64,000 nucleotides of DNA from Arthrobacter koreensis (lineage in GTDB: Bacteria > Actinomycetota > Actinomycetes > Actinomycetales > Micrococcaceae), in assembly GCF_009193255.1 (NCBI RefSeq), contig NZ_WACG01000005.1, positions 186,001-250,000 on the forward strand, read 5' to 3'. Under the pieces are notes generated by a model that saw only the letters and a program-made list of their open reading frames with translations, was not told the DNA's origin and did no database searches. Every line of letters begins with the position of its first letter. Position 1 is the stretch's first letter. A program made the translations under genes and the position numbers. Shown piece after piece: positions 7,640-43,106 of this stretch.

Positions 7640-8665
7640 CTACGGGATGAGCACGATCCGGATGGGGTTGCCCTCCTTGGCATCCAGGGATTTCACCGCC
7701 CGCTCCGCTTCCGAGAGCGGCAGGCGGGCGCTGATGGACCCGGCGAAGTCCAGGCGTCCCAGCCGGGTCAGCGAAACGAGCTGCGGAACGTGGTGCGCCT
7801 CGGAACCGTAATGCCCCAGCACCTGCTGACGGGAGAAGGAGAAGCCGGTGCTGTCACCAATAGTCACCGGCTTGCCGCTCAGCCCCACCAGCACGAGCCG
7901 GCCGCGCAGGCCCAGGGAGGCCAGCGCCTGGTTCCGGACGGCGTCGACGCCGGCAAAGTCCAGGGCGGCGTCGAGCCCGCGGCCGCCGGTGGCGGCCTTC
8001 ATCGCGGAAGCGAAATCCTCGGCCAGCGGATCCAGCGCTGCATCCGCGCCGAGTTCAAGAGCCCGAGCACGTGCTTCCGGGATCGGGTCGACGGCGATGA
8101 TCGGCGCAGCTCCCACCATCCTCAGCAGCTGCACTCCATGGGCACCCAGGCCGCCGATCCCCCACACACCCACGGCTTCCCCGGGACGCACCTCGGCGGT
8201 CGAGGCGATGGCGGCCCAGGGCGTGGAAACAGCGTCTGGAATGATTGCTGCCTGGTCAAACGGGATATCCTCGCCCAGCGGCACGCAGACACCTGCCGGC
8301 ACCACCAGGTATTCGGCCCATCCGCCGTCGTAGTCAACGCCCATGGTGAGGGTCACGCCGTTGTGCTCATACCCTGCCTGGACCACCACACGGTCCCCGG
8401 GAGCCAGGGAGGCGACGCCGGGACCGGGGAGGTCAACGGTGCCGGCAACTTCGTGCCCGAGCGTGACTTCGTTCCCCGTGAGGAACTTGGGGCGCAGCAG
8501 TCCCTGGATCAGGTGCACGTCGGAGAGGCAGACGCCGGCGGCTTCGACTTTCACGCGAACGAAACCGGGGCCGGGATCCGGAACCGGAATTTCCTTGAGC
8601 GCAAACGTGCCGGTCTCGACATTCAGACGGCCGGCGATCATGGTGCGGGACGAATCTTCGGACAT
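7640..8665 (-). CDS. Zinc-dependent medium-chain alcohol dehydrogenase (no structural zinc lobe)
   Basis: 341-residue MDR protein. The GroES-like domain has the catalytic zinc residues AGVCLSDVH and LGHEVAG; the Rossmann domain has GVWGIGGLGAHGVQLLRM. The four-cysteine structural zinc lobe of classical alcohol dehydrogenases is absent; the corresponding stretch reads GYEHNGVTLTMGVDYDGG. It oxidises an unknown alcohol with NAD(P). It lies downstream of a second MDR dehydrogenase on the same strand, but a hairpin at 8690-8719 separates them. Confidence 0.85.
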   Translation of the reverse strand: MSEDSSRTMIAGRLNVETGTFALKEIPVPDPGPGFVRVKVEAAGVCLSDVHLIQGLLRPKFLTGNEVTLGHEVAGTVDLPGPGVASLAPGDRVVVQAGYEHNGVTLTMGVDYDGGWAEYLVVPAGVCVPLGEDIPFDQAAIIPDAVSTPWAAIASTAEVRPGEAVGVWGIGGLGAHGVQLLRMVGAAPIIAVDPIPEARARALELGADAALDPLAEDFASAMKAATGGRGLDAALDFAGVDAVRNQALASLGLRGRLVLVGLSGKPVTIGDSTGFSFSRQQVLGHYGSEAHHVPQLVSLTRLGRLDFAGSISARLPLSEAERAVKSLDAKEGNPIRIVLIP

Positions 8666-26229: not shown

Positions 26230-27629
26230 CCGAAACAACTGTCCAGCCTTCCTCAACCACACCCCGCGGAACGGACCGCCAGCAGGCGGCACGCGACCAC
26301 CTGTGGATGCACATGGCCCGCCACTCGGGACCGGTTGCCGGTGGAAATGTTCCGATTATTACGCGCGGCCAGGGCCACCACATCTACGACGACCGCGGCC
26401 ACGAACTCATTGACGGCCTGGCCGGGCTCTTCACGGTGCAGGTTGGCCACGGCCGCGAAGAACTGGCCGAGGCCGCTGCCCGCCAGATGCGCGAACTGAG
26501 CTTCATGCCGCTGTGGTCCTACGCCCATCCGCCCGCCATCGACCTGGCCGAGCGCCTCGCCGCCGGAGCGCCGGGCGACCTGAACCGGGTGTTCTTCACT
26601 TCCGGCGGCGGTGACTCCGTCGAGTCGGCATGGAAGCTGGCGAAGCAGTACTTCAAGCTCACCGGCAGGCCCACCAAGCACAAGGTGATCTCCCGTGCCG
26701 TCGCCTACCACGGCACACCGCAGGGCGCCCTGTCCATCACCGGCATCCCGGACATGAAGTCCGCCTTCGAACCGCTCGTTCCCGGCGCCTTCCGCGTACC
26801 GAATACCAACCAGTACCGTGCGCCTGAGGGGCTGGAGGATCCGGAGGCCTTCGGCCGCTGGGCCGCAGACCGGATCGGCGAAGCGATCGAATTCGAAGGT
26901 CCGGACACGGTGGCGGCCGTATTCCTCGAACCGGTGCAGAACTCCGGCGGCTGCTTCCCGCCGCCTCCCGGCTACTTCAAGCGGGTGCGTGAAATCTGCG
27001 ACCAGTACGACGTCCTGCTTGTTTCGGACGAAACCATCTGCGCCTTTGGCCGGGTCGGTTCGATGTTCGCCTCCACCGACTTCGACTACGTTCCGGACAT
27101 CATCACCTGTGCCAAGGGCATCACCAGCGGCTACGCTCCCCTGGGCGCGATGATCGCCTCGGACCGCCTGTTCGAACCGTTCGCCAAGGGCGACACCACG
27201 TTCTACCACGGCTACACCTTCGGCGGGCACCCTGTCTCCGCCGCCGTCGCCATGGCCAACCTGGACATTTTCGATGCCGAGGACCTCAACAACCGGGTGA
27301 AGACCAACGCCCCGGCCTTCCGCGCCACGCTGGAGAAGCTGAAGGACCTGCCGATCGTGGGCGATGTCCGCGGCGAGGGTTACTTCTACGGAATCGAGCT
27401 GGTGAAGGACAAGGCCACCAAGGAGACCTTCTCCGCGGACGAGTCCGAACGCCTGCTGCGCGGCTACGTTTCAACCGCGCTGTACGACGCCGGCCTGTAC
27501 TGCCGTGCCGACGACCGCGGCGACCCCGTCATCCAGCTCGCACCGCCGCTGACGATCGGCCAGCCCGAGTTCGACCAGATCGAGTCGATCCTCCGGTCCG
27601 TTCTCACGGAAGGACTCAACCACCTCTGA
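26226..27629 (+). CDS. Class III PLP aminotransferase, putrescine/diamine:pyruvate type
   Basis: 467 residues. PLP site DIITCAKGITSGYAPLGAMI with Lys-297; FFTSGGGDSVESAWKLAKQY and TFYHGYTFGGHPVSAAVAMA are typical of the omega-amino acid/diamine transaminases (SpuC-like). It would convert putrescine and pyruvate to 4-aminobutanal and alanine. The start overlaps the AsnC stop (ATGA) and the stop overlaps the next start (TGATG), making a tight three-gene operon. Confidence 0.88.
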   Translation: MTETTVQPSSTTPRGTDRQQAARDHLWMHMARHSGPVAGGNVPIITRGQGHHIYDDRGHELIDGLAGLFTVQVGHGREELAEAAARQMRELSFMPLWSYAHPPAIDLAERLAAGAPGDLNRVFFTSGGGDSVESAWKLAKQYFKLTGRPTKHKVISRAVAYHGTPQGALSITGIPDMKSAFEPLVPGAFRVPNTNQYRAPEGLEDPEAFGRWAADRIGEAIEFEGPDTVAAVFLEPVQNSGGCFPPPPGYFKRVREICDQYDVLLVSDETICAFGRVGSMFASTDFDYVPDIITCAKGITSGYAPLGAMIASDRLFEPFAKGDTTFYHGYTFGGHPVSAAVAMANLDIFDAEDLNNRVKTNAPAFRATLEKLKDLPIVGDVRGEGYFYGIELVKDKATKETFSADESERLLRGYVSTALYDAGLYCRADDRGDPVIQLAPPLTIGQPEFDQIESILRSVLTEGLNHL

Positions 27630-29014
27630 TGAGCATCTCCACAGCCCCGGTAAACGGCAGCGTCTCCTTCTGGTACGCGGAATCCGGCCTTCCGGATCAG
27701 CGTCCCGGCCTGGACGGAAACCGCGAGGCGGACGTCGCCGTCGTCGGCGCCGGTTATACGGGGCTGTGGACTGCCTATTACCTGAAGAAGGCCCGCCCGG
27801 ACCTGTCCGTTGTAGTGCTCGAATCCCGGTTCGCCGGGTTCGGCGCCTCCGGACGCAACGGCGGCTGGCTGACCAACTCGATCACCGGGGGCCGCAGCCA
27901 GTACGTGAAATCCCACGGCCGCGCCGTTGTGGGACGGTTCCAGGAACTGCTCAACGAAACCGTGGACGAGGTCATTGCGGTTGCCGGTGCCGAGGGCATC
28001 GACGCCGCAGTGGCCAAGGGCGGAGAACTCAACGTTGCCCGCAATGAGGCGCAGCTGGGCCGGCTGCTGGCCTGGGCCGAGGACGAAGCTGCCTGGCCTG
28101 AGGCTGGAACCCGCCTGCTCGACGCCGCTGAAACGGCCGAGCGAATCCAGGTTGCCGGTGCGCTGGGCAGCGTCCACCACCCCCACTGTGCCCGCATCCA
28201 CCCGGCGCGGCTGGTGCGCGGGCTGGCCGCCGCCGTCGAGCGCCTTGGCGTTCCCATTTACGAGGGCACTACCGTCACTGACATCCGGCCCGGCCGCGCC
28301 GTAACCGACCGCGGCACCGTAAGCGCGAAGTACGTCCTGCGCGCCACCGAGGGCTTCACCGCGAACCTGCGCGGCCATTCCCGCGAATGGCTGCCCATGA
28401 ACTCCTCCATGATCGCCACGGAACCGCTCCCGGAATCCGTCTGGCAGCAGATCGGCTGGCATGGCCGGGAGACGGTCGCGGACATGGCCCACGCCTATAT
28501 GTATGCGCAGCGCACCGCCGACGGACGCATTGCGCTGGGCGGACGCGGAGTGCCGTACCGGTTCGGCTCCCGCACGGATACCGACGGCGCCACGCAGCCG
28601 GAGACGATCGCCAGCCTTACGGCGTTGCTGCAGGACATGTTCCCGGCGGCTGCGGAAGCGCGGATCGAGCATGCCTGGGCCGGCGTCCTGGGGGTTCCGC
28701 GGGACTGGAAGGCCACCGTTGGCCTGGATCCGAAGACCGGACTGGGCTGGGCAGGCGGCTACGTGGGAACCGGGGTAACCGCCACCAACCTTGCCGCCCG
28801 TACCCTGCGCGACCTCATTCTGGACCCCGGCAGCGAACTCACCCGGATGCCTTGGGTGAACCGGAAGGTCCGGAGGTGGGAACCAGAGCCGCTGCGCTGG
28901 ATTGCCGTCAAGGCCATGTATGCGGCGTACTACGCCGCCGACCGCGCCGAACGCAACGGCCGGAGCACGACGTCGCCCATCGCCAAGGCCGCGAACCTCG
29001 TGTCCGGGCGGTAG
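27629..29014 (+). CDS. FAD-dependent amine oxidase, PuuB/DAO family
   Basis: 461 residues. ADVAVVGAGYTGLWTAYYL binds the FAD adenosine; SRFAGFGASGRNGGWLTN is the second signature of gamma-glutamylputrescine oxidase-like DAO proteins. A C-terminal AGGYVGTGVTATNLAARTL closes the FAD fold. It would oxidise a primary amine to an aldehyde with release of ammonia and peroxide. It directly follows the transaminase. A paralogue lies at 36962. Substrate is inferred from context. Confidence 0.87.
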   Translation: MSISTAPVNGSVSFWYAESGLPDQRPGLDGNREADVAVVGAGYTGLWTAYYLKKARPDLSVVVLESRFAGFGASGRNGGWLTNSITGGRSQYVKSHGRAVVGRFQELLNETVDEVIAVAGAEGIDAAVAKGGELNVARNEAQLGRLLAWAEDEAAWPEAGTRLLDAAETAERIQVAGALGSVHHPHCARIHPARLVRGLAAAVERLGVPIYEGTTVTDIRPGRAVTDRGTVSAKYVLRATEGFTANLRGHSREWLPMNSSMIATEPLPESVWQQIGWHGRETVADMAHAYMYAQRTADGRIALGGRGVPYRFGSRTDTDGATQPETIASLTALLQDMFPAAAEARIEHAWAGVLGVPRDWKATVGLDPKTGLGWAGGYVGTGVTATNLAARTLRDLILDPGSELTRMPWVNRKVRRWEPEPLRWIAVKAMYAAYYAADRAERNGRSTTSPIAKAANLVSGR

Positions 29015-29088: not shown

Positions 29089-29092
29089 TGGG

Positions 29093-29861
29093 TTCCCACG
29101 CGCTGTGACACCTGTGCGCTTCTGGGGTCCCAGCCGTCACAGCCGCAACGACGGCTGGGAAACCGTGCAGCCCGGGCGTCGCCCGGAGGCGTCCGCAGGC
29201 CGGATTCCCACGCGCTGTGACACCTGTGCGCTTCTGGGGTCCCAGCCGTCACAGCCGCAACGACGGCTGGGAAACCGTGCAGCCCGGGCGTCGCCGGCAG
29301 GGGGCCGCCGGGTCGGGCCGCCGGCGGGATTCCCACGCGCTGTGACACCTGTGCGCTTCTGGGGTCCCAACCGTCACAGCCGCAACGACGGCTGGGAAAC
29401 CGTGCCGCCCGGACGGGGGGATGTCCTCCGGGAGGTCCGCCGCGCGGGGTCCGCCGGGGCTTGGGCCGGCAGGGGGCCGCCGGCTGGATTCCCACGCACC
29501 GTGACACCTGTGCACTCCTGGGGTCCCATCCGTCACAGCCACAACAACGGCGGGGAAACTGTGCCGCCCGGACTGGGGATGTCCGCCGAGAGGTCCGCCG
29601 CGCGGGGTCCGCCGGGGCTTGGGCCGGACGGGGCTGGCCGCCGGCGTTCCCACGCACCGTGACACCTGTGCACTCCTCGGGTCCCAGCCGTCACAGCGGC
29701 AACGACGGCTGGGAAACCGTGCCGCTCAGGCCGTCGCCAGCAGGGGCCGCCGGGCCGGGCCGTCGCCGGGAGGGGCGCCGGCGGATTCCCAAGCACCGTA
29801 ACACCTGTGCACTCCTGAGGTCCCAACCGTCACAGCCGCAACAACGGCTGGGAAACCGGGC
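29093..29861. repeat. Array of six 76-bp structured repeats
   Basis: This 0.8-kb gap between convergent genes has no credible gene. Six units of exactly 76 bp occupy 29093-29168, 29205-29280, 29330-29405, 29489-29564, 29647-29722 and 29786-29861. Each runs from TTCCCA to GGGAAACCGTGC and contains a hairpin CCCAGCCGTC...GACGGCTGGG, perfect in units 1, 2 and 5. The GC-rich spacers are 36, 49, 83, 82 and 63 bp; the 83- and 82-bp spacers are close copies of each other, so unit plus spacer of about 158 bp has duplicated. ORFs on both strands are by-products of the repeat. Confidence 0.93.
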
Positions 29862-29893: not shown

Positions 29894-30211
29894 CTACGAG
29901 TTCTGGGTGGTCTTGAGCTCGATCTCCACGAACGCGAACTCGGTGTCCGTCTTGTTGATGACGTTGTGCTCACTGCCGGCTTCCCGTGCGTAGGACTCCC
30001 CCACCACCAGGTCCAGGGTGGCCTGGCCGCCGTCGGCCGTCTCATAGCTCATGTGCCCGGCCGCGGTGGGAACCACCACGTAGTCCAGCTCGTGCCGGTG
30101 CCAGCCGGTCTGGGTGCCGGGAGGGAAACGCCATTCCGTGACCCGGACCCGGTCATTGTCGATCTGTACGGCTACAACGGCCTGCCCGTAGTCAAGCGAT
30201 GATGAGTTCAT
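29894..30211 (-). CDS. Small cupin protein
   Basis: 105 residues with a single cupin barrel: PPGTQTGWHRHELDYVVVPT holds the metal-binding HxH and downstream Asp/Glu, and ESYAREAGSEHNVINKTD holds the second motif His. Such proteins bind a metal and a small ligand or act as simple dioxygenases or isomerases. The stop lies 33 bases from the 76-bp repeat array. The gene sits 62 bases downstream... of no same-strand partner; the PucR gene ends at 30273 on the same strand just upstream, so co-transcription is possible. Confidence 0.82.
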   Translation of the reverse strand: MNSSSLDYGQAVVAVQIDNDRVRVTEWRFPPGTQTGWHRHELDYVVVPTAAGHMSYETADGGQATLDLVVGESYAREAGSEHNVINKTDTEFAFVEIELKTTQNS

Positions 30212-42425: not shown

Positions 42426-43106
42426 TCAGGCCGCGAAACGGCTCAGGAAGGACTGCTTTGACCACTGGATGTGGGCACGCATTCGTGCCTCCGCTTCGAC
42501 GGCACCGCCGGCGTCCACCGCCGCCAGGATGGGACGGTGTTCGGACCAGGAATCCCGCCCGCGGAACCCGACGTCGGAGGCGTAGAGCCACTCGATCTTC
42601 CCGGCCAGCTGGGCCAGCAACGCCTGCAGGGACGCGCTGCCCGCCAGTTCGGCGATGCCGCGGTGGAATCCAAGGTTCAGCTCCGGCAGCACCTCCAGCC
42701 GGCCCTCGGCTGCGGCGGCGTCCCCGGCAGCCAGGGTTTCCCCGAGCCGGCGCCGGGCTTCCCACCAGTCCGGATCCGGGATGCCCGCAGCTGCCTGCCG
42801 GGCCGCACGCTCCGCGGCCCGCCGCGCCGTCGCGCTTTCCACTGCTTCCCGGACGTCGAACAGGTCCCCGGCTTCGCCCGGGTCCAGCCGGGCGACCCGG
42901 GACCCGGCGTACGGGCGGGATTCAACGAATCCTTCGGCGGCGAGCGTCCGCAGCGCTTCGCGAACCGGAACGCGGGAGGATCCATAGCGGGCGGCCAGGG
43001 CTGCCTCGGTGATCTTGGCCCCCGGTGCCAGTTCTCCGCGGATGATGTCCTGCCGGATTCGATCCCGTATCCCCGGTTCCCCGGGGAGCTCAGCGGCCTG
43101 CGGCAT
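42426..43106 (-). CDS. GntR-family regulator with FCD domain
   Basis: 226 residues. N-terminal winged helix IRDRIRQDIIRGELAPGAKI with RYGSSRVPVREALRTLAAEG; then an FCD ligand domain with the metal-site His residues in LNLGFHRGIAELAG and DSWSEHRPILAAV. Start at MPQAAELPGEPG (43106), which overlaps the end of the gamma-glutamyltransferase gene by 17 bp; the frame is open further but antisense. It probably controls the ggt and/or ldh genes next to it. Confidence 0.87.
   Translation of the reverse strand: MPQAAELPGEPGIRDRIRQDIIRGELAPGAKITEAALAARYGSSRVPVREALRTLAAEGFVESRPYAGSRVARLDPGEAGDLFDVREAVESATARRAAERAARQAAAGIPDPDWWEARRRLGETLAAGDAAAAEGRLEVLPELNLGFHRGIAELAGSASLQALLAQLAGKIEWLYASDVGFRGRDSWSEHRPILAAVDAGGAVEAEARMRAHIQWSKQSFLSRFAA

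Follow-up and report, generated by a model that had tools for sequence, protein, structure and literature searches.

A genus-restricted family of dispersed 69-bp dyads in Arthrobacter and its probable pairing with a DUF559/AbiEi-like gene

Introduction

Six repeats of identical length stand between two genes of Arthrobacter koreensis, in a stretch of 64,000 nucleotides (hereafter the window; contig C9:186001-250000 of G000, the genome under study), and they raise the question of whether such an array is a local satellite or part of a wider system. In bacteria, dispersed intergenic repeat doublets are best known as REPINs, which depend on RAYT transposases. The original prediction for this locus, made from the letters of the window, left a non-autonomous mobile repeat, a protein-binding array and a structured RNA all open.

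Results

A six-copy array of fixed geometry

The array comprises six copies of exactly 76 bp, bounded by TTCCCA, which start at 29093, 29205, 29330, 29489, 29647 and 29786, end at 29861 and are separated by spacers of 36, 49, 83, 82 and 63 bp; positions and lengths agree with the original prediction. The gap that it occupies is convergent, as also predicted, because an oxidoreductase-like gene (+ strand, 27629-29014) lies to the left and a cupin-like gene (- strand, 29894-30211) to the right. The length of 76 bp was right, but the repeat is better described as a 69-bp symmetric core, TTCCCA...TGGGAA, with seven trailing bases (ACCGTGC or similar). This core is an imperfect dyad of two inverted half-sites of ~35 bp, and the features of the array are as follows:

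29093..29161, no strand: unit 1, 69-bp dyad with centre TGGGGTCCCA; match to the 69-bp model R2 (67 bits, E 4e-18)
29205..29273, no strand: unit 2, 69-bp core the same as that of unit 1
29330..29398, no strand: unit 3, model R2 match
29489..29557, no strand: unit 4, right end GGGGAA, the most degenerate among the six
29647..29715, no strand: unit 5, model R2 match
29786..29854, no strand: unit 6, model R2 match
29091..29132, + strand: forward half-site of unit 1 (G000 C9:215091-215132), in a layout common to units 2-6
29123..29163, - strand: inverted half-site of unit 1 (C9:215123-215163), including the hairpin of the original prediction
29406..29646, no strand: spacer 3, unit 4 and spacer 4, the mark of a duplication of ~158 bp

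Units 3-6 match units 1 and 2 at 60-68 of the 69 core positions. The array is not a product of chance, and TTTCCCAGCCGTCGTTAC, with up to three mismatches, has five matches in the window, all of them inside the array, against 0.06 expected. A hairpin had been described as perfect in three copies and altered by one or two bases in the others; copies 1, 2 and 5 are indeed free of changes, whereas three occur in copy 4. This hairpin is one half-site folded on itself. Spacers 3 and 4 had been called near copies and are 90% identical, and the proposed expansion by duplication of ~158 bp gains support from the 158-bp period of the array; differences in number by whole units also occur between species. 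At the same locus in congeners, units are present in G006 and absent from G004 and G014, with blurred borders.

The half-site approximates TTCCCAnCCnYCGTnRCnnSTGnnnCnn(n)TGnGRYC, most clearly in an alignment of 40 half-sites (A1), and the two half-sites of a unit share about ten bases at the centre, TGnG[AC/GT]CnCA. All 47 distinct pairs of the first collection had the two inverted repeats of a REPIN-type unit, with outer ends 68, 69 or 70 bp apart (9, 23 and 15 pairs, respectively) and no other value across the examined range of 66-82 bp. The AC/GT dinucleotide at the centre, found in 156 of 184 units, prompted the idea of a serine-recombinase crossover site; this was rejected, since tandem half-sites also keep the central AC/GT, which is therefore not specific evidence for a recombinase site.

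Distribution in the genome, the genus and the family

Across the whole G000 genome, the half-site pattern gave 78 matches with up to two mismatches, compared with 17 for its reversed control, and the half-site model gave 94 matches at E values up to 0.1. These sites include the window array and, on contigs C5, C6, C7, C9 and C10, arrays or pairs. Others lie at four contig ends next to rRNA operons (L067, L072, L073, L074), each with half-sites in tandem at steps of ~50 bp that finish in a single inverted pair. Three of these contig ends contain a 5S gene, and the fourth, C15, was placed beside an rRNA operon because its sequence toward the contig end resembles the other three. A general link of the units to rRNA operons was rejected, as no such units occur at 30 5S loci of eight complete congeners, and the contig-end arrays are a lineage-specific expansion. 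Between its half-site array and the contig end, C15 also contains a 52-nt repeat with a 157-bp period (L013 2534-2585 and 2691-2742).

Model R2 was positive in 24 of 29 Arthrobacter genomes, with 2 to 89 matches each, counts in which one palindrome was often scored once per strand. Unit number differs greatly among close species, and the five congeners with no R2 match served as negative controls; the filters of the genome search may miss diverged units, so a zero denotes the lack of a match at the threshold used. When 248 genomes of the family were searched with this model, the ~231 non-congeners yielded a single borderline match (E 2e-5), and in the genome_contigs collection (84,980 species) the exact half-site pattern was found in Arthrobacter records only. 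Searches of plasmid and phage collections returned no match. The window array belongs, as one cluster, to a genus-restricted family of dispersed 69-bp pseudo-palindromes and not a local satellite: a repeat found nowhere else and varying freely in length is contradicted by dispersal through genome and genus with a fixed geometry.

Features pointing to a double-stranded site

If a hairpin were under selection, variable positions of its two arms would change together. Covariation between the arms was 0.316 in 45 units, against 0.384 after shuffling; for 85 units the two values were 0.452 and 0.441. Selection for a hairpin is therefore unlikely and was rejected as an explanation; the pairing-maintained hairpin of a REPIN was accordingly not found in either set. 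Rfam gave no match to the unit above noise, and a covarying stem was likewise absent. The stem followed by a T-run that marks an intrinsic terminator was also not seen, as TTTT occurs within 15 nt of either end in just 1 of 200 units. The mean folding z of the units is about -2.3. Information in the half-site peaks approximately every 9.5 bp, a spacing that would be expected for contacts on one face of the double helix and that suggests, from the sequence pattern, a protein site.

Placement, conservation and turnover

At 110 loci with 200 units, where genes were called by a custom codon-usage script and not taken from annotation, none of the units fell within a gene. Of the 75-1500 bp gaps, 37 of 84 with units were convergent compared with 36 of 258 without (odds ratio 4.9, p 3e-8, a value that is optimistic because some loci are orthologues of one another), and units were depleted from divergent gaps. 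At orthologous places, units agree at 78% of positions and their flanks at 44%, a direction seen in 169 of 170 comparisons, which are non-independent within arrays; part of this difference arises because the units were picked by a model, and unrelated units already agree at 67%. One such place precedes a SatD-like gene, where a unit is conserved in five species and the G017 flanks align poorly. Repeated TTGCAA-like motifs adjoin this conserved unit upstream of the SatD-like gene (L019, about 1640-1705).

Closely related species differ by the gain or loss of whole units at a given site, and a search for empty sites yielded copy-number differences only. No clean empty/filled pair with sharp borders and a target duplication was found when the window locus, the nuclease locus and congener loci were compared, and copies at different places have diverged, so a recent jump is not seen.

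A nuclease-like gene beside the units

When neighbouring genes were grouped, one locus stood out that has units in many genomes and adjoins valS and an SDR-like gene. Between or adjoining these units is a gene for a protein of ~270 residues. Profile analysis indicated an N-terminal AbiEi_4 domain and C-terminal DUF559 and MTES_1575 restriction endonuclease domains, not all of which exceed their cut-offs in every member: among four proteins, DUF559 was over its cut-off in three and MTES_1575 in one, while AbiEi_4 was above in one, below in two and not found in one. The PADLOC AbiEi profile matched the protein with an E value of 4.7e-7, an NCBIfam search returned nothing, and the PDB matches were weak, with 3r3p, the structure of I-Bth0305I, as the sole nuclease among them (E 0.53). 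A single-sequence fold reached a pLDDT of 47, too poor for a structure search, and the protein is assigned as a nuclease from profiles, some of which score below Pfam cut-offs. Invariant residues include D204, E214, D216 and H221 (numbering of the member alignment). The gene evolves quickly, with 85% identity where ValS has 96%, and its dN/dS of 0.08-0.27 indicates purifying selection. We found no literature that links DUF559 with AbiEi or with such repeats.

A profile built from ten members (alignment A3) detected one copy of the gene in each of 21 of the 29 genomes, in every case at this one locus, and a unit lies close to it in all 21. Most often the unit sits upstream, with 124-130 bp separating it from where the protein match begins; the nearby unit of G005, G011 and G012 lies downstream. 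In G020, the gene is split in two frames (L370) and there are few unit matches (15). The ValS proteins of G004 and its near-twin G014 are 99% identical, yet the DUF559 allele of G004 is close to that of G011 (83%) rather than to that of G014. It shares its orientation with the G011 gene and has a comparable unit at its flank, which looks, from this one locus, as if gene and unit had been exchanged together between lineages. When G002 was aligned with its gene-less sisters, homology resumed 28-40 bp past the outer unit in five of six comparisons, and the left border was not sharp. The gene-less G007, G022, G023 and G024 have a NUDIX-like gene where the nuclease gene would otherwise lie (L363, L372, L373 and L374, respectively).

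Co-occurrence of gene and units

All 21 gene-bearing genomes have units genome-wide, and the gene never occurs without them. Eight genomes lack the gene (G001, G007, G008, G013, G018, G022, G023 and G024); five of these (G007, G013, G022, G023 and G024) gave no unit match at all and G008 gave two. The other two, G001 and G018, have 23 and 51 matches and may be recent gene losses; G001 has two units at the valS locus without the gene. Median unit matches are 35 with the gene and 0 without. A Fisher test that treats the genomes as unrelated gives p 0.0005, and the neighbour part of the association is post hoc because the gene was noticed as a neighbour of the units and co-occurrence was tested afterwards. 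On the ValS tree, the gene needs five changes and the units four (with G008 counted as without), and among independent pairs that differ in the gene, the units differ likewise 2.7 times on average and never in the opposite direction; with only 4-5 independent gene changes, significance in a sign test is out of reach.

Discussion

Comparison with known systems

The combination of a single-copy gene beside repeats with a repeat number tied to that gene has a precedent in REPIN-RAYT systems, in which inverted repeat doublets occur in many intergenic copies and in clusters, a single-copy gene is vertically inherited and repeats are more numerous where the gene is present (PMC8049555). The Arthrobacter units are likewise inverted doublets with many intergenic copies, local clusters and one single-copy gene, but this gene is not a RAYT: it encodes a predicted nuclease of DUF559/Vsr-like type that carries an AbiEi-like winged helix. 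The Y1 (HUH) transposase PF01797 was detected in none of the 29 congeners, with positive controls. The units also differ from REPINs in that their arms do not covary, making a hairpin target unlikely, and a double-stranded target is proposed instead. Given the absence of a Y1 transposase from the 29 genomes and the lack of a maintained hairpin, the Arthrobacter pair is not a member of REPIN-RAYT, and we propose that it is a similar arrangement built from an unrelated nuclease.

Other systems share single features with this pair. The nuclease of I-Bth0305I has a Vsr-like fold. This multi-domain homing enzyme with an EDxHD nuclease domain binds a site of almost 60 bp as a dimer (PMC3943268) and would resemble the Arthrobacter protein, as envisaged here, in carrying its nuclease on a multi-domain protein and in acting as a dimer on a long site; the two match weakly in sequence (3r3p, E 0.53), and the I-Bth0305I gene lies in a phage intron with a host gene as its site, whereas the Arthrobacter site is a dispersed repeat. 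The N-terminal winged helix appears related to that of AbiEi from AbiE type IV toxin-antitoxin systems (Pfam AbiEi_4 and PADLOC AbiEi), but the C-terminus of the Arthrobacter protein is a predicted nuclease domain. Among the neighbouring genes read, which include the SDR-like gene and valS, no nucleotidyltransferase toxin gene of the AbiEii kind was noticed. Like MITEs, the units are short and dispersed with inverted ends; unlike MITEs, they showed no target duplications or recent copies and are retained at orthologous places. They share regular repeats and palindromic character with CRISPR arrays and integron attC sites, but their spacers are GC-rich, mutually related and free of cassette genes, the arms do not pair and most sites hold single units.

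A proposed repeat-spreading pair

As the family occurs with the nuclease gene and is mostly missing where the gene is missing, the units and the DUF559/AbiEi-like gene probably form an undescribed repeat-spreading pair. Of the options left by the original prediction, a structured RNA is disfavoured, while a protein-binding dyad and a non-autonomous repeat both fit and may be true together. Neither the complete dyad nor its association with a nuclease gene was visible from the letters of the window. We consider it likely that the DUF559 protein is the cognate binding protein of the units; that it also copies them is plausible, at somewhat less than an even chance. The specific mechanism that we tentatively suggest is that the DUF559/Vsr-like nuclease with its AbiEi-like winged helix binds the 69-bp dyads in double-stranded form, copies them by cutting and repair and so maintains the repeat population. 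The protein would bind the dyad as a dimer, with one subunit per half-site, and the nuclease domain would cut or nick at or near the unit centre. Repair of the break could then copy units locally, giving arrays, and rarely to new intergenic places, and selection would retain them mainly where promoters are undisturbed, from which the convergent bias may follow. Here, binding, cleavage and mobility of the units are all inferred. AbiEi proteins are described as binding inverted repeats (PMC7319586), and by analogy this precedent and that of I-Bth0305I make the proposed binding and cutting reasonable. The explanation as a whole, a dyad family whose cognate nuclease copies the units in a REPIN-RAYT-like manner, is about evenly balanced between right and wrong, its support being correlative.

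If it is correct, this would be a second repeat/nuclease pair with an unrelated enzyme, implying that such long-lived arrangements arise repeatedly, and a repeat-spreading system unrelated to RAYT. It would also give part of a protein family of unknown function a role, provide a testable DNA substrate for DUF559 proteins, which are annotated as of unknown function, and account for a class of arrays in Arthrobacter genomes.

Alternative explanations

The strongest competitor, which we nevertheless regard as rather unlikely, is that the units are operator or architectural sites, where a dimeric protein (DUF559 or another) bends or bridges DNA and forms a boundary between convergent transcripts, and where the unit upstream of the DUF559 gene is autoregulatory as in AbiEi; the units would then have spread by ordinary duplication and recombination, with no copying by a nuclease. 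The convergent bias, the dyad with its helical periodicity and the conservation at orthologous places all suit such sites, as does the near-constant distance of a unit upstream of the gene in most genomes; AbiEi antitoxins autoregulate via inverted repeats (PMC7319586). Large copy-number differences among close species and absence from five congeners fit a non-essential element better, however, tandem arrays of 2-8 units exceed what an operator needs, and pure binding leaves the invariant nuclease-domain residues unexplained.

We consider it improbable that the units are an ancient family of non-autonomous transposons or satellites dispersed by some other enzyme, perhaps one since lost, with the DUF559 gene as a chance link or passenger. 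Dispersal with local amplification, fixed inverted ends that resemble those of transposons, and the units that G001 and G018 carry without the gene are compatible with this history, but the gene is accompanied by adjoining units in 21 of 21 genomes, gene and units are both absent from five, and diverged copies have retained motif and geometry. It is very improbable that the units encode a structured RNA or terminate transcription bidirectionally at gene ends, despite the location at gene 3' ends and the low folding z, since any palindrome is expected to give a low folding energy, the arms lack covariation in 45 or 85 units, a T-run follows 1 of 200 units and Rfam gave no match above noise.

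Other sequence elements

Tandem Repeats Finder reported two short tandem repeats elsewhere in the window, at 42724-42803 and 2474-2512. At a GatD-like locus, a strongly conserved non-coding block of ~85 nt lies beside units (L068, about 8040-8130; orthologues L183, L198, L209 and L236), for which Rfam returned nothing above noise. This block reads GGACGGGCCGGGTTAGGCGGCTTTAATACTCC...GGAGTTTCGTTGCCGCCGTTCCGGCCCGCCCGG and is partly duplicated in G014.
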